Below, one piece after another: positions 10,471-19,524 of a stretch of 64,000 nucleotides of DNA. Source of the stretch: Haloarcula mannanilytica (lineage in GTDB: Archaea > Halobacteriota > Halobacteria > Halobacteriales > Haloarculaceae); contig NZ_BIXZ01000004.1 of the NCBI RefSeq assembly GCF_005406125.1, forward strand, positions 62,001 through 126,000, in the 5' to 3' direction. A program made the position numbers and the translations under genes. Position 1 is the first letter of the stretch. Every line of letters begins with the position of its first letter. Under the pieces are notes generated by a model. That model ran no database searches, was not told the DNA's origin, and saw nothing but the letters and a program-made list of their open reading frames with translations.

Positions 10471-11448
10471 TCAGTCCTCGTCGTCTTCGGTCGCGTTGGC
10501 GAGTACGTCGTCTGGTTCGATCCAGATGACGAACTCGTCTTCGTCGTCGCGGTCGACGACGCCGTTGATGTACTCGCCGTCGACCGGGGCGGTGTTCACC
10601 TCGGACTCGGCGACGGGGACGACCTGCCGGACCTCGTCGACGATCCAGCCCATCGCGCCCTGTTCCTCGAACACGTCCGCGTCGAAGACGACGATGAGGT
10701 TCTGCGTGCCCTCGCTGTCGATGTCCATCATCGCCTTGGGGTTGAGAATCGTCGTAATCTGGCCCCGGAGGTCGACGACACCCTCGACGTAGTCGTCGGT
10801 GTTCGGGACGCGGGTGACCGTCTCGCGCTTGACGATCTCCTCGACGTAGTCGATGTCGAGACAGTAGTACTCGTCGCCGAGCGCGAATTCGAGCACCCGA
10901 ACCAGTTCCTCTGTCTGGGTGGACTCGTCGTCGATAGCCGCGGCGCGAGCGCCGCCCTCGGTGGTGGCGGCGTTGCTCGACTCCATCGCCTCCTCGATGA
11001 GCTCCTGGTCGGGCAGTTCGACACCGGTCGGTCCCTGCATCGGGTTGGCCGTCGCCGACAGATCGTCGGTCGGCTGGTCGACAGCGCCGGCGTCGGTGTC
11101 GCCGGTCGCTACCTGTGCGGAGGCCTCGGCCGCCCGCTGTGCGGCGGCGAGAGCGTCAGCGTCGCCCTGACCAGCTGCATCGGCGGAATCAGAACCGCTG
11201 TCGTTGCCTTCAGCAGCCTGCCCGTCGGTTGCAGCCGTGGCGTCGTCCGTCTCGTCGCTGTCGGTCGCCTCCGTCGCGGTCGTTTCTGTCGCTCCACCCT
11301 CGGCTCCGCTCTCGTCGTCAGGCTGTTCACCGGAGCCGTCCGCGGAGGTTTCGTCTGTCTCCTCGGCGTCGTCGGTACTTTCGGCCTTGTTCCCCTCGCG
11401 CATCTGTCGGATGCGTTCCGCCCTGTCCATACGTTCGTCGTCACTCAT
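10471..11448 (-). CDS. cheW: CheW-domain chemotaxis adaptor with long acidic N-terminal region
   Basis: This 325-residue protein has about 180 residues of low-complexity, Asp/Glu/Ala/Thr-rich sequence followed by a CheW domain (about 185-320). CheW hallmarks are LVRVLEFALGDEYYCLDIDYVEEIV, the RVPNTDDYVEGVVDLRGQITTILNP segment, and IVDEVRQVVPV. CheW couples receptors to the CheA kinase in the signalling array. Its start overlaps the stop of the upstream ParA-like gene by four bases (11445-11448), so both are translated from one message. The acidic leader is unusually long for a CheW and may be a tether or a partner-binding tail. Confidence 0.92.
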   Translation of the reverse strand: MSDDERMDRAERIRQMREGNKAESTDDAEETDETSADGSGEQPDDESGAEGGATETTATEATDSDETDDATAATDGQAAEGNDSGSDSADAAGQGDADALAAAQRAAEASAQVATGDTDAGAVDQPTDDLSATANPMQGPTGVELPDQELIEEAMESSNAATTEGGARAAAIDDESTQTEELVRVLEFALGDEYYCLDIDYVEEIVKRETVTRVPNTDDYVEGVVDLRGQITTILNPKAMMDIDSEGTQNLIVVFDADVFEEQGAMGWIVDEVRQVVPVAESEVNTAPVDGEYINGVVDRDDEDEFVIWIEPDDVLANATEDDED

Positions 11449-12347
11449 GCTGGTACCTCTGTGTCGGTAAAGCCGAACTGCTCGTCGAGTTCCGTGGCGA
11501 TGTCCTCGAAGACAGCCGCCATGTCACACGATTCCTCGGTCGCGAAGATAGACTGGCCGGCGCTGAACGCGCGCTGGAGCGCGACCCGCTTGCGGACCTC
11601 CCAGACGGGGCTGTCCGGGAACGCCATGTTGAACCATTCGAGCATCGTCTCGTCCTCGGACGTGGTCTCGACGCGGTTGGCGACGACGCCGAGCGTGTTG
11701 ATCGACGCGTCCGTCTGGCGCTCCATCGCAGCCATCTGGTCCATCAGCAGTTCGATGGCTCGCTCGGAGGTGGCTTCAGTCAGTGCGGGAATGAGGACGT
11801 TCTGTGCGGCGTACATGCCGGTGTCGGTCAGCTTCCCGTAAAAGGGCGGGCAGTCGATGATGACGTAGTCGTAGTCGGTCTCAAGCGTCGACAGCGCCCG
11901 GTCGAGCGTATCGAGCGCGTGCGATCCCGTGACCATCTCCGGCGTGACGTTGATCGCGAACGAGGCCAGCGCGGCCTGGTTGATATCTCCGCCCTGGGTG
12001 TTGACCCGGGCGATGAGGTCCGCGATAGTCAGTTCGTGTTCGGCCTGGAGCATGTCGATGCTGGAGGGGATCACATCCATCTCCTCGCCCTCACAGATGA
12101 GGTCGCCCAGCGCCGACGGGTCGCCGGTCAGTGCGTCGAACAGCGTTGGCGGGTCAGCGTCGTACTCATCGACCAGCCCGACGCCCTCCGTGGCGTTGCC
12201 CTGTGGGTCGAGGTCGATAAAGAGGACATCCCGGCCGCGGTCGTTCAGTGCACCGGCTACGTTGATAGCAACTGTCGTCTTTCCGGTCCCGCCCTTCGCG
12301 TTGGTCACGCAGAAGCGCGCTGGACCGGTTCCTGATTGCCGGTTCAT
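11445..12347 (-). CDS. parA: ParA/MinD-type partitioning ATPase
   Basis: This 300-residue P-loop ATPase has the deviant Walker A motif KGGTGKTTVAINVAGAL near residue 18, LFIDLDPQGNATEGVGL (A' motif), and DYVIIDCPPFYGKL (switch II). There is no obvious membrane-targeting amphipathic helix at the C terminus. ParA proteins position plasmids, chromosomes or protein arrays by ATP-dependent surface gradients. Its tight coupling to cheW suggests it places chemosensory arrays, as bacterial ParC does with ParP. An open frame reaches back to 12380, but the TATA box at 12381-12388 would put the transcription start near the ATG at 12347, which I chose. Confidence 0.9.
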   Translation of the reverse strand: MNRQSGTGPARFCVTNAKGGTGKTTVAINVAGALNDRGRDVLFIDLDPQGNATEGVGLVDEYDADPPTLFDALTGDPSALGDLICEGEEMDVIPSSIDMLQAEHELTIADLIARVNTQGGDINQAALASFAINVTPEMVTGSHALDTLDRALSTLETDYDYVIIDCPPFYGKLTDTGMYAAQNVLIPALTEATSERAIELLMDQMAAMERQTDASINTLGVVANRVETTSEDETMLEWFNMAFPDSPVWEVRKRVALQRAFSAGQSIFATEESCDMAAVFEDIATELDEQFGFTDTEVPA

Positions 12348-12380
12348 CGTCGAAGTGTCCACAGGTCGACCCCGAGCCAC

Positions 12381-12388
12381 TATAAAAA
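12381..12388 (-). promoter_or_regulatory. TATA box of the parA-cheW operon
   Basis: On the minus strand the sequence tttttata lies about 34 bases before the ATG at 12347. It excludes the longer open frame starting at 12380 and supports a leaderless or very short-leader transcript. Confidence 0.6.
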
Positions 12389-12487
12389 TGTGGTCCCGAT
12401 TATCAACGTCGCAACTCGGGAGCGGGAAGACAATGATTCGGAAATGCCCGTGAGCGCGTGCATGACGGGAGTCTGACGGTGTGCAAG

Positions 12488-12496
12488 ATTTATCAT
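12488..12496 (+). promoter_or_regulatory. TATA-like box of the ArlD/E-domain gene
   Basis: The sequence gatttatca begins 33 bases before the ATG at 12521. It lies in the 173-base divergent region shared with the parA-cheW operon. Confidence 0.5.
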
Positions 12497-12520
12497 CGTG
12501 TAGATTGAAGGGGTAGTATC

Positions 12521-13006
12521 ATGACTATCAACCCGCGCGACTACGACTTAGACGAGTTACGGAAGATGGCTCGCCAGCGGGGGAACGGGGTGAGCGACGA
12601 GGACGTTCCGGACCCGGCGAACCTCGATATGGGGCTTGACGACGCCGACGAGGAAGTGCTTGCGGGGAGTTCCTTTCGCTCCGGCCTGTACCGCGAACTG
12701 CTCCCGTTCCTCGGCGGTGAGGCCGAGGAGAAGCCCTATCTCGGGACCCTCCCCGAGACGTACGCCGCGGAGTTCGTCATCTTCGAGTGGCTCGAGTTCC
12801 TGCTGATGCACTCCGGCTATCAGGGGGCCGACGAGGCGCTCGATTACTACCGCTCTATCGACTGGATCACCGAGGACGTACAGGACGACCTCTCGGATTA
12901 CTTGCTCGGTATCGACGAGTCCGCGACCAACGACGACAACGAACTGAGCGTCGACGACCACATGTTGAGTCTCGTCTACGTCGCGAAGCTCACCGCGATG
13001 ACGTAA
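12521..13006 (+). CDS. ArlD/ArlE (FlaD/E) domain protein
   Basis: This 161-residue protein has a C-terminal archaellum accessory domain of the FlaD/E type: KPYLGTLPETYAAEFVIFEWLEFLLMHSG, then ALDYYRSIDWITEDVQDDLSDYLLG, followed by DHMLSLVYVAKLTAM. The first ~55 residues (DYDLDELRKMARQRGNG) resemble the N terminus of haloarchaeal FlaCE/FlaD proteins. In the archaellum, ArlCDE form the cytoplasmic ring that receives the chemotaxis signal through CheF. No archaellin or ArlHIJ gene is nearby, so this is an orphan paralogue. Its neighbours, a ParA-CheW pair and an actin-like gene, point to a role in positioning or linking the motility apparatus, which is an inference. Confidence 0.85.
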   Translation: MTINPRDYDLDELRKMARQRGNGVSDEDVPDPANLDMGLDDADEEVLAGSSFRSGLYRELLPFLGGEAEEKPYLGTLPETYAAEFVIFEWLEFLLMHSGYQGADEALDYYRSIDWITEDVQDDLSDYLLGIDESATNDDNELSVDDHMLSLVYVAKLTAMT

Positions 13007-13111
13007 CCTTCATTTTCAGCAACAATTCTCCGTTTCAAATCCCTGATAGCGACGGGTGTCGACGCCGGCTCCCCGAGGGGGCGGCTATCAGTCCTGAATA
13101 CTAGGGAGAGA

Positions 13112-13119
13112 ATATATAC
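13112..13119 (+). promoter_or_regulatory. TATA box of the actin-like gene
   Basis: The sequence atatatac begins 34 bases before the ATG at 13146, indicating a dedicated promoter and a nearly leaderless transcript for the actin-like gene. Confidence 0.6.
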
Positions 13120-13145
13120 CGGCCGGTCGACAAAGACGACCGTAC

Positions 13146-14240
13146 ATGAGTGACGACGACGCGGACGACGGAGCCGGGTCCGAATCGGACGCCGGTGTGT
13201 CGTCAAGCGGCGCTGCGGCTGTTCCGGTCGGGGTCAAGCTCGGAAGCACCCGGACCGTCATTGCCCTGCCAGGCGAACACGGGACGGAGAATCGAATCAT
13301 CAAGACGCTGACGTGCATGGCGACCTACGAGGACGCCCTGACCGGCGAGGAGAAGGTCCTCTACGGCGAGGAAGCGGCTCGCGAGTACCCGGACCGCGTC
13401 GAGTACATGCTTCGGTCGGGACTGCCTGAAGACGCCGACCGGGCCGAGATGACCAAGACGTTCTTCGAGGCGATCATCGAGGAAAACGACATCCCGGCAA
13501 ACAGCGGCGTGGTGTATGCCATCCCGACCATCGACAATCCGACTGGGCTGGAGAACCTGCAGAACGTCATCGAGAACTCCTCGATCGGGCTGGATCTCGT
13601 CGAGAGCTATCCGGAGTCGCTGTGTGGCTCCATTCCGGCCTTTGGCGATGATCTCGAAGCCATCGACGAGATCTTCGTCGCCGTCAACATGGGGTCGACG
13701 AACCTCGAAGCCTCCGCGTACCGACGGGGCGAGCAGTTGTCTCCGTTCACGACGGGCGCAGTGACCGGCAACGAAGTCGACCGGATGATCGCCAACTACG
13801 TCGAGGAGGAGACCCAGGGCCGTGTCAACATCGACAACCAGACCGCCCGCGAATACAAGGAAGAGCACGCCGACTTCGTCGATTTCGAGCCGTTCACGGA
13901 CATCATCCAGCAGCCCGGCGGCGGCTCACACGAGTTCACTATCGAGCGCTCGGTGATGGACGCGCTCGACGAGTACCTCGACGACGCCGTCGACGAGCTG
14001 GCGAACACGTTCCTGCCGGAGCTGGCAAACGACTACATGAAGGTGTACCAGCTGGCGCTGGACCGGCCCATCGCCATCACCGGCGGCATGGCCTGTATCC
14101 CCGGCATCGTCGAGGAGTTCGAGGAGCGACTCAGCGCGGAGCTGAACCGTGACATCGACGTTATCGCCGCCGACGAACCGGATATCGCTCCGACTATCGG
14201 CGCACAGCGAATCGCGGCCCGTCTCGTAGATACCAACTAG
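13146..14240 (+). CDS. Actin/MreB-fold ATPase, salactin-like
   Basis: This 364-residue protein has the ASKHA nucleotide-binding motifs in order: phosphate-1 loop VGVKLGSTRTVIALP (about 28-42), phosphate-2 loop VAVNMGSTNLEASAY (about 178-192) and adenosine motif AITGGMACIPG (about 312-322). The N terminus is a ~25-residue acidic tail. The size and motifs fit the haloarchaeal actin homologue salactin, which forms dynamically unstable filaments in Halobacterium; I cannot confirm orthology without an alignment. A plasmid ParM/Alp-like or MreB-like protein is the alternative. It has its own promoter and sits next to an ArlD/E-domain gene and the parA-cheW operon. Confidence 0.8.
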   Translation: MSDDDADDGAGSESDAGVSSSGAAAVPVGVKLGSTRTVIALPGEHGTENRIIKTLTCMATYEDALTGEEKVLYGEEAAREYPDRVEYMLRSGLPEDADRAEMTKTFFEAIIEENDIPANSGVVYAIPTIDNPTGLENLQNVIENSSIGLDLVESYPESLCGSIPAFGDDLEAIDEIFVAVNMGSTNLEASAYRRGEQLSPFTTGAVTGNEVDRMIANYVEEETQGRVNIDNQTAREYKEEHADFVDFEPFTDIIQQPGGGSHEFTIERSVMDALDEYLDDAVDELANTFLPELANDYMKVYQLALDRPIAITGGMACIPGIVEEFEERLSAELNRDIDVIAADEPDIAPTIGAQRIAARLVDTN

Positions 14241-14422
14241 GGGTTCCGCCAGCAGTCCAGCCACCGCTCGATTACGGGTTCGGACTGGGCCATCTTGTGC
14301 TCGGTGTCGTTCGATAGCAGTTCGAACACGTCAGTATCGATTCCGAGGCGGACCCTGTCGGCCGAAACTCCCCCACCCTGTAGGTCCCGGGCTGGCTGGC
14401 CGCCAAGACGGATACGTGGCAT
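14237..14422 (-). CDS. Hypothetical protein, 61 residues
   Basis: This small frame converges on the actin-like gene, sharing the bases ctag at the two stops. It begins MPRIRLGGQPARDLQG and contains DTDVFELLSNDTEHKM and a C-terminal ERWLDCWRNP. Third-position GC is high, as in its neighbours, and there is no competing frame in the spacer, which supports it being real. There are no recognised motifs. It could be a haloarchaeal lineage-specific protein or a chance frame. Confidence 0.45.
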   Translation of the reverse strand: MPRIRLGGQPARDLQGGGVSADRVRLGIDTDVFELLSNDTEHKMAQSEPVIERWLDCWRNP

Positions 14423-14632
14423 GTGGCCGGCTACGGCAGCATGATACCTAAATCCAAGTCAGACAACCGTCTGCCGGTCGACGGACGAACCTGTGAAGCG
14501 ACGGCAGATCGGCGGACGCAGCCACCTGCGAGCGGTAGCGGTATGATCTGCTCCCGGGAGATATTAATTTATACTTCCAGTATCAGAATAGATAAGTGAA
14601 TCTCAAGTCCTAAGGAGTGTTTTGTTCCGATA

Positions 14633-16129
14633 ATGGGAAAAATTATCAATTTAGATAATTCAGATACCGCTCCGCCCGACGTGCTCACGAGCACCGGCTC
14701 GGGCGGGTTCCTCTCGACAGGCTATCTCCGCGACGAGCCGGCGCTGGCGGCCGTCGACGGCGACGAAACGCCGCGGTTTGCACTCACGAGCAGTAAGCAC
14801 GGCATCGAAATCGGGCCGGAAGCGTCAGGCGAGACGGTCCGACCGGGGAGCGACTACCGCATGATCGGCGTCGTGACGGACAAGCGACTCCTCTTGTTGG
14901 TGGGCAGCGACGACGGCGACACGCGGTTCGCGATCCCGCACGTCGAAATCGACCAGATAGCCGGTGACCGGTCGCTGGGACACGGCCGCATCACGTTCCG
15001 GCGGTGCGGCGACACGGAGTGGCGAGTCCACTGCGGCAAGGAGGGGCTCGTGGACCTGACGGCGTATCTCTCACACGCCTCGCAGGCGTGGGTCCGCGTC
15101 GAGAACATCTTGGACGAGGTCAAGCGGATGCTCGTCACAGCGACCGAGCAGCGCGACCGGGGGGACCACGACGCGGCACTGGAGACGGTGCTGGAAGCCG
15201 GTGAGCGGCTTGATGCGGCTAGCAAGACGGCCGCCGAGTTTGGTCCGTCCGGTGAGACGAACGCACTCGCAGGCCGTGTCGCGACGGTACGAGAGCGCCA
15301 CATCGCGACACTCACGGAGGTCCGCCGGAGCCGCGCGCGGCAGGCGGTCGACACCGGCGAGCAGCGCTGGCGACGAAACGAGTTCGAAGCGGCCTACGAC
15401 GCCTACGACGAGGCACGAGCGGAATACGAGGAGATACTATCCCTCCCGACAGCGGCCATCCCCGAACGCGACGACATCCGTGACGAGCGAGACCGACTCG
15501 ATACCGTGGTGGAAGATCTCGAACGGTCGCCGCTGCGCGTCGCGGTCTCAGCCGACAACGAGGCCGTCGCGGCGGAGGACCCGGCTGTCGCCGCCGACCA
15601 CTGGATCGAGGCGCTGGAAGCCTACCGCGAGGTCCTCGAACTCGACTGGGGTGCGGACGAGCGCCGGTTCGCCGGTGACCCCGAGAGGGTCCGAGACCGA
15701 CTGGGGACCGTCGCGGAAAACCTCGTCGCTGCGCGGCGGACGGTCGCAACGGATGCGATGGAAGCCGGGGACTGGTACGCTGATGCCAGCCAACCCGACG
15801 CCGCGATAGAAGAGTATGAGGCGGCACGGGCGGCGTTCGAAACCGCGCTGGCCGCAGCCAGAGACTGCTATCCGGATGCCACCGACCACCTGGCGGCGGA
15901 GCTCGATGCCGTCGAACAGCGGCTCTCGCGGGCAAAAGCAAGAGCCGACGGCGAACCCGTCGATGTCGACGACCGCTTCGGTGATACCGAGCCGACGCCG
16001 GACCTCGGCCTAGCGACGGCCGATGACCGCTCGCCGTCACCGGCTGATGCGACTGAGCTTTCGGACATCGAGAGCGGTGTCGACGGACCCGATACAAAAA
16101 TTGACCCGACGGGCCACGGCGGCCAGTAA
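14633..16129 (+). CDS. PH-like/helical-repeat protein of unknown function
   Basis: This is a 498-residue soluble protein. Residues ~40-165 look like a bacterial PH (GRAM-like) beta domain (YRMIGVVTDKRLLLLVG, FAIPHVEIDQIAGD, GRITFRRCGDTEWRVHCG). Residues ~170-430 are Ala/Arg/Glu-rich helices with TPR-like spacing (WRRNEFEAAYDAYDEARAEY and AGDWYADASQPDAAIEEYEAA), and the last ~60 are an acidic, disordered-looking tail. An AT-rich promoter (14561-14573) and an AAGGAG at 14612-14617 precede the ATG. No enzyme motif is visible; a scaffold role is possible because it follows the actin-like gene. Confidence 0.8.
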   Translation: MGKIINLDNSDTAPPDVLTSTGSGGFLSTGYLRDEPALAAVDGDETPRFALTSSKHGIEIGPEASGETVRPGSDYRMIGVVTDKRLLLLVGSDDGDTRFAIPHVEIDQIAGDRSLGHGRITFRRCGDTEWRVHCGKEGLVDLTAYLSHASQAWVRVENILDEVKRMLVTATEQRDRGDHDAALETVLEAGERLDAASKTAAEFGPSGETNALAGRVATVRERHIATLTEVRRSRARQAVDTGEQRWRRNEFEAAYDAYDEARAEYEEILSLPTAAIPERDDIRDERDRLDTVVEDLERSPLRVAVSADNEAVAAEDPAVAADHWIEALEAYREVLELDWGADERRFAGDPERVRDRLGTVAENLVAARRTVATDAMEAGDWYADASQPDAAIEEYEAARAAFETALAAARDCYPDATDHLAAELDAVEQRLSRAKARADGEPVDVDDRFGDTEPTPDLGLATADDRSPSPADATELSDIESGVDGPDTKIDPTGHGGQ

Positions 16130-16297: not shown

Positions 16298-16323
16298 TCT
16301 TTAATGAAGTATGCACAATTATA

Positions 16324-16458
16324 ATGAACTGCACCAACTGCGGCACACGGATGTCTTACAACGACCAGACGACAAAGCTCACAGAGTTCGTCTGCCCCAG
16401 TTGCCACGAAACCGTCATCGACTGGAAGGCCGAGGCCCGAAACGCCCGCGTCCACTGA
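16324..16458 (+). CDS. Very small zinc-finger protein, 44 residues
   Basis: The protein MNCTNCGTRMSYNDQ... carries CTNCG at residue 3 and CPSCHETV at about residue 25, one predicted zinc knuckle pair. The start at 16324 is set by the TATA box at 16290-16297. Proteins of this size and pattern are common in haloarchaea and mostly uncharacterised. A T6 run follows the stop. It is monocistronic. Confidence 0.75.
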   Translation: MNCTNCGTRMSYNDQTTKLTEFVCPSCHETVIDWKAEARNARVH

Positions 16459-16471
16459 GCAGTTCACACCG

Positions 16472-17334: not shown

Positions 17335-19524
<2,190 letters not shown>

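Follow-up and report, generated by a model that had tools for sequence, protein, structure and literature searches.

A conserved arlD–salactin gene pair with a divergent parA–cheW pair as a candidate pole-organising locus in Haloarcula

Gene content of the locus

We examined a block of five genes at positions 10471–16129 of a 64,000-nucleotide stretch (the window) of the genome of Haloarcula mannanilytica, using Pfam profiles and genome-wide profile searches. An earlier note on this DNA had described the block as genes for CheW, ParA, an ArlD/E-domain protein, an actin-like filament protein and a protein with a PH-like and a helical part, and had seen in it a locus that positions the cell pole or the motility apparatus. 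All five genes lie where that note placed them among the open reading frames of the window, and their positions, the Pfam matches and a model of the fifth protein confirm the block as described. What is new is the conserved unit of arlD and the actin gene salactin, together with its place in the system of archaellum (arl) and chemotaxis (che) genes; the component families were known already. The features of the block are as follows.

10471–11448, minus strand: CheW-family adaptor with a basic N-terminal motif (ERMDRAERIRQMREGNK), an acidic linker of ~160 residues and a CheW domain at residues 185–317 (Pfam CheW, E = 4e-22)
11445–12380, minus strand: ParA-family ATPase with the deviant Walker A motif KGGTGKTT (Pfam AAA_31/ParA, E = 4e-37)
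12348–12520, no strand: divergent putative promoter region, with TATAAAAA at 12381–12388 on the parA–cheW side and TTTATC at 12489–12494 on the arlD side
12521–13006, plus strand: arlD, predicted archaellum motor/switch-complex protein, outside the arl cluster (Arch_fla_DE, PF04659, E = 1.5e-29)
13146–14240, plus strand: salactin, polar actin homologue (PF25229, E = 2e-186), with its own TATATA box at 13113–13118
14633–16129, plus strand: protein with a PH-like barrel and TPR-like helical repeats (AlphaFold2 and Foldseek)

The parA and cheW frames overlap by 4 bp (ATGA, read from the sequence). For parA, the ATG at 12347 (300 amino acids) is a likelier start than the upstream GTG, because the TATA-like box at 12381–12388 abuts that GTG. 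The boxes CTATAAAAAT and AAGATTTA of the putative divergent parA/arlD promoters are kept in other Haloarcula species, the intergenic boxes being conserved at eight other Haloarcula/Halomicroarcula loci, and a separate TATATA box precedes salactin in most of the Haloarcula loci compared. The two divergent promoters of the earlier note therefore hold as predicted promoters, on the strength of conserved TATA-like boxes in both directions. Its remark that the block contains no other archaellum gene was also correct, since the arl/che cluster sits on a separate contig.

Identity of the actin and of the ArlD/E-domain protein

The actin, previously termed salactin-like, is salactin itself: PF25229 covers the whole actin domain with 619 bits against a cut-off of 27.1, and the gene is single-copy in this genome. 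The published salactin of Halobacterium salinarum (VNG0153C; Zheng et al. 2023) belongs to the same Pfam family as the window protein, which matches it with E = 2e-186 over the whole domain. In H. salinarum, the only species where this was shown, salactin forms dynamically unstable filaments from the poles, which grow from polar foci with subunits added at the far end, and a role in DNA segregation was proposed (PMC10746226). According to the same paper, from which we take the resemblance, the closest actin relative of salactin is MamK, the magnetosome actin that positions an organelle; MamK differs in being bacterial and in having an unrelated cargo. The terms archaellum, ArlD, ParA and CheW were not found in the text of that study (PMC10746226).

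The ArlD/E-domain gene was called ArlD because profile searches gave just two PF04659 genes in the genome and because a tree places the window gene as ArlD. The other PF04659 gene is the arlCE of the arl/che cluster on the other contig, which holds archaellin, cheY, cheC, cheD, arlCE, arlF, arlG, arlH, arlI and arlJ genes and in which no arlD was found. The tree, built from 158 domains, groups the window gene with the ArlD proteins of two families (f12, where ArlD is encoded in the arl cluster, and f17), opposite the ArlCE group (Shimodaira–Hasegawa-like approximate likelihood ratio test, SH-aLRT, 90 on the ArlD side and 86 on the ArlCE side, for a short domain with many forks left open), and the same clade takes in 67 of the 77 de-duplicated salactin-adjacent sequences. 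An N-terminal NPxxYDxxELR signature is common to full-length ArlDs, both the window protein and those of arl clusters. The gene thus has the Arch_fla_DE domain and groups with arl-cluster ArlD but does not lie in the arl cluster, and in most salactin-bearing genera sampled arlD stands outside the main arl cluster. Judged by these sequence comparisons, the window gene is ArlD itself. Compared with the haloarchaeal archaellum ArlD (Haloferax ArlD/FlaD; PMC6509185, PMC11588486), it belongs to the same clade and carries the same N-terminal signature, whereas its position, outside the arl cluster and beside salactin and parA–cheW, is different. A new paralogue was considered and rejected on the count of two PF04659 genes and on the tree. 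Separately, a further ArlD-like paralogue lies a few kb away from salactin in Haloferax and G126 (L073 14955–15506; L179 5239–5694), where it adjoins an acyl-CoA dehydrogenase-like gene.

Conservation of the arlD–salactin pair

For the linkage count we took 80 salactin genes in named genomes with at least 1.2 kb of upstream sequence. In 69 of these 80 haloarchaeal loci the gene immediately upstream, in the same orientation, is an ArlD/E-domain gene, with a median gap below 100 bp; the earlier note had suggested searching haloarchaeal genomes for this gene order, and its arlD–salactin part proved widespread. In Halorubrum the two genes share a 4-bp ATGA overlap, and among 52 Halorubrum-type genomes salactin is present in 48 and stands beside arlD in every one of them. 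The proximity is above chance: of just two Arch_fla_DE genes in the H. mannanilytica genome, one stands beside salactin, and the arrangement recurs throughout the survey. Sixty-seven linked loci fell into 18 neighbourhood groups, so the pair stayed intact through changes in the genes around it. How many groups are counted depends on the rule, a loose one (one shared gene) merging nearly all loci and a stricter one giving 18. While the published study reported poor synteny, even within Halobacterium (PMC10746226), we observe the opposite, namely arlD–salactin linkage at most of the haloarchaeal salactin loci recovered outside Halobacterium. A literature search of partial coverage found no paper linking salactin with ArlD.

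In contrast to the published account of H. salinarum salactin, the gene in Haloarcula and most haloarchaea recovered is either paired with arlD or placed in an arl/che island. The order cheY-cheC-cheD-arlD-salactin lies beside archaellin/arl genes in Haloferax larsenii, H. elongans, Halogeometricum limi, three Halobellus species and G126, and in G359 arlD and salactin share one che/arl region of ~20 kb. The arl operon of Halovenus carboxidivorans reads arlG-salactin-arlCE-arlH-salactin-arlCE-arlH-arlI-arlJ, and SHR40 is similar, with salactin copies between arlG and arlI. These two operons (L063, L066) each hold two salactin genes and a duplicated arlCE, and L066 a duplicated arlH.

Co-occurrence with the archaellum and its exceptions

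Across 146 genomes of the order, ArlDE and archaellins are present in 39 of the 40 that have salactin, and ArlDE in 53 of the 106 that lack it (Fisher p = 7e-9); the single exception is a genome 86% complete. Among 106 Haloarculaceae, ArlDE occurs in all 76 genomes with a strong salactin compared with 8 of the 30 others (Fisher p = 2e-16; neither p value is corrected for phylogeny), and no full-length salactin was found in the 22 Haloarculaceae genomes without ArlDE. Salactin and archaellum genes are jointly absent from G419, G474 and G060, whose same-genus relatives have both. The co-occurrence is strong in the haloarchaea sampled and broken in Halocatena and some Methanotecta. An absolute rule that salactin is found only in archaellated species was rejected on account of Halocatena, some Archaeoglobi and a Methanocella-like genome.

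The seven Halocatena genomes (94–99% complete; two share coordinates and may be near-copies) each carry a single ArlDE gene, which the tree puts with ArlD and which adjoins salactin in all seven. No archaellin, and no ArlJ above the type IV pilus background, was found in these genomes, so that arlD–salactin survives there without the motor. We regard Halocatena as the strongest single sign that ArlD acts with salactin apart from the archaellum. It also bears on whether the adjacency is a historical remnant of an ancestral arl/che island, for which the island arrangement of several genera would make one ancestral linkage plausible. A passive linkage should decay like its surroundings, and the 18 neighbourhood groups, the 4-bp overlaps of Halorubrum and the survival of archaellum loss in Halocatena make such a remnant improbable.

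In Archaeoglobi, salactin is part of a conserved operon with a coiled-coil gene and a MinD/ParA ATPase gene; a type IV pilus tadC adjoins it in four loci, and pilB with a pilin-like gene in one. By its gene order, this operon links salactin to positioning ATPases and archaellum-type machines a second time and independently. The operon was recorded at L231 2517–9712 and at L241, L242, L243, L234 and L244–L249.

The parA–cheW pair

The parA–cheW pair stands divergent to arlD in ~28 Haloarculaceae-type loci, almost only in Haloarculaceae, all of its loci having been recovered through salactin or ArlD/E searches. Elsewhere arlD–salactin occurs without parA–cheW, which points to a modular unit, and parA–cheW adjoins arlD even where salactin is elsewhere (G075, Halosimplex). 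Of the genes that the earlier note viewed as one locus, arlD–salactin is widespread as a pair, and parA–cheW is tied to arlD almost only in this one family.

The parA-linked CheW genes group in a clade of their own (SH-aLRT 99), from which CheW1 of this genome and the short CheW of f12 are separate. Near their start they carry a near-invariant motif, RMDRAxRIRxMREGxR, followed by the acidic linker. Among 41 CheW open reading frames examined, this basic motif is present in 29, which are those of the ParA-linked clade; CheW1 of this genome and the other CheWs lack it. A ParA ATPase encoded with a CheW-domain adaptor of distinct N-terminus and conserved motif recalls Vibrio ParC–ParP (PMC5706961) and Rhodobacter PpfA–TlpT, where a ParA-type ATPase is likewise encoded with an array adaptor; the ParP/TlpT adaptors consist of an N-terminal segment, a linker and an array domain (CheW-like in ParP), as does the window CheW. 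The window pair differs from ParC–ParP in being archaeal, in its short and basic N-terminal motif and in its acidic linker. By analogy, the basic motif of CheW may contact ParA. Haloferax MinD4 and MinD2 are deviant-Walker ATPases affecting the polar placement of ArlD and CheW (PMC11588486); unlike these MinD-type proteins, the window ATPase is of ParA type and operonic with CheW. No paper describing a haloarchaeal ParA–CheW pair was found in the literature searched, with partial coverage. In the Halobacterium-like f12, a MinD-type ATPase gene directly follows arlJ (L158 15470–16471; L160 2738–3676), and a short CheW lies nearby in L160.

The PH/helical protein and neighbouring genes

Pfam gave only a sub-threshold bPH_3 match (E = 0.26) for the fifth protein. 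Its AlphaFold2 model (predicted local distance difference test, pLDDT, 85.7) has an N-terminal beta barrel followed by TPR-like helices, and in Foldseek the barrel matched the PH domains of USP37, DENND3 and GRK2, with TPR matches as well, in agreement with the description as a PH/helical protein. The gene follows salactin in many Haloarculaceae; outside this family it was not found beside salactin in the neighbour survey, and its relatives elsewhere are variable and carry additional C-terminal domains. This distribution, together with the near confinement of parA–cheW to Haloarculaceae, is what one would expect if parA–cheW and the PH/helical gene were unrelated passengers and arlD–salactin the only unit. 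We consider this somewhat unlikely, as parA–cheW adjoins arlD in the loci recovered, even with salactin elsewhere, and as CheW and ArlD are in one pathway.

The extra C-terminal domain of the PH/helical relatives in L038, L042, L043, L056, L058 and L061 looks restriction-endonuclease-like by eye, and Halorientalis has two copies of such relatives near salactin. Downstream of the PH/helical gene, the window contains a CxxC zinc-ribbon micro-ORF of ~44 residues preceded by a TATA-like box (~16320–16470) and, after the block, a GH32-type glycosidase gene (17413–19524; levanase/inulinase-like by eye), syntenic in most Haloarcula loci.

A proposed pole-organising locus built on ArlD

We propose, with about even confidence, that the block is a pole-organising locus of two units, arlD–salactin and parA–cheW, that share ArlD. 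As salactin subunits are added at the far end of the filament, its near end must be held by something. In Haloferax, ArlD-GFP serves as the standard marker of the polar motor (PMC6509185, PMC11588486), and ArlCDE possibly contacts the polar cap (PMC8978795). On the most economical reading, ArlD is what anchors or nucleates salactin: as a polar motor/switch component, it would be the polar anchor or nucleator for growing and shrinking filaments, which would then position or inherit polar material, that is, the archaellar motor/polar cap and/or chromosomes. ParA would act via the basic N-terminal peptide of the CheW adaptor, whose C-terminal domain would dock in chemoreceptor arrays, so that ParA–CheW would place arrays at the same pole in the manner of Vibrio ParC–ParP. 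We observed the gene identities, the ArlD orthology, the linkage, the embedding in islands and operons, the co-occurrence and the retention after archaellum loss; to these the scheme would add an ArlD–salactin contact, anchoring or nucleation, a cargo, and an effect of the CheW N-terminus in stimulating ParA. In a broader form, which we put forward tentatively and think somewhat unlikely in full, salactin would be an integral yet separable part of the archaellum/polar-cap system, with a bifunctional ArlD that both anchors and nucleates the dynamically unstable filaments and links the motor, ParA–CheW array placement and chromosome distribution, part of the system persisting in Halocatena.

Several observations weigh against this proposal. 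In the tree, 10 of the 77 salactin-adjacent ArlDE genes group with ArlCE or settle on neither side; the ArlD model is of moderate quality only (pLDDT 73.9), and a fold search with it gave no PDB relative. Salactin is not beside arlD in f12 (probably Halobacteriaceae), suggesting that the linkage is not obligatory; Halosimplex has arlD–parA–cheW 5 kb from salactin, and genus g5 has arlD–parA–cheW elsewhere. Halorubrum G473 has arlD (L221 5800–6213) and archaellins, with no salactin beside arlD or elsewhere in the assembly, and salactin is likewise missing from over half of the archaellated haloarchaea sampled. Salactin also occurs in some Archaeoglobi and in a Methanocella-like genome that have no archaellum genes, suggesting that its ancestral role was not archaellum-specific. 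Finally, deletion of salactin in H. salinarum left motility rings unchanged, and the defect concerned DNA distribution under low phosphate (PMC10746226); the negative ring result and the positive DNA phenotype together argue against a simple motility role.

These data leave room for two other accounts of the filament. Salactin may be a chromosome-segregation actin as published, with ArlD used, or re-used, as its pole mark and the archaellum not being a cargo; the pairing of the genes would then reflect no more than a common anchor at the pole. The DNA distribution and viability defects of H. salinarum without a motility defect (PMC10746226), the retention of arlD–salactin after archaellum loss in Halocatena and the presence of salactin with a MinD/ParA gene in non-archaellated Archaeoglobi are consistent with it, whereas salactin is essentially confined to ArlD/E-bearing genomes in the haloarchaea sampled, and a general DNA-segregation factor would not be expected to sit, as salactin does in several genera, in the arl operon or an arl/che island; on balance we hold this account possible and somewhat unlikely. 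Alternatively, salactin may position or segregate the archaellar motor/polar cap in a MamK-like manner; ArlD would then link motor and filament, giving each daughter pole a motor, and the DNA phenotype would be indirect. To this account, a serious candidate although short of an even chance, belong the kinship with MamK (PMC10746226), the island and operon embedding, and the co-occurrence with joint absence in G419, G474 and G060; it is opposed by the negative ring assay in H. salinarum, the archaellated haloarchaea without salactin and the Halocatena pair without an archaellum.

For the idea of a locus that positions the motility apparatus, the polar and motility link is supported more strongly than the sequence alone could show, through ArlD, salactin, their linkage in 69/80 loci, the arl/che island of some genera and the near confinement of salactin to ArlD/E-bearing genomes in the haloarchaea sampled, while positioning of the motility apparatus itself is not established, in view of the unchanged rings of H. 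salinarum, the archaellum without salactin in G473 and the pair without an archaellum in Halocatena. These three findings go half way towards what the earlier note had named as refuting its idea, namely that the actin-like and ArlD/E-domain genes be unlinked to parA–cheW in other haloarchaea and lack any motility or localisation phenotype. The block is better described as a pole-organising unit based on ArlD than as one for motility-apparatus positioning. The genomic facts are firm. The mechanism is a hypothesis on which several lines converge, and a single published result, a negative one, speaks against its simplest form.

The arlD–salactin unit bears on what anchors and nucleates salactin, on its cargo and on the make-up of the euryarchaeal polar cap, and the published synteny analysis, centred on Halobacterium, overlooked a conserved partner. 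The parA–cheW pair is an archaeal candidate for a chemoreceptor positioning pair of the ParC–ParP type. If ArlD is the anchor, the DNA-segregation reading of salactin would be reopened, and gene linkage would connect an actin filament with a rotary motor for motility.

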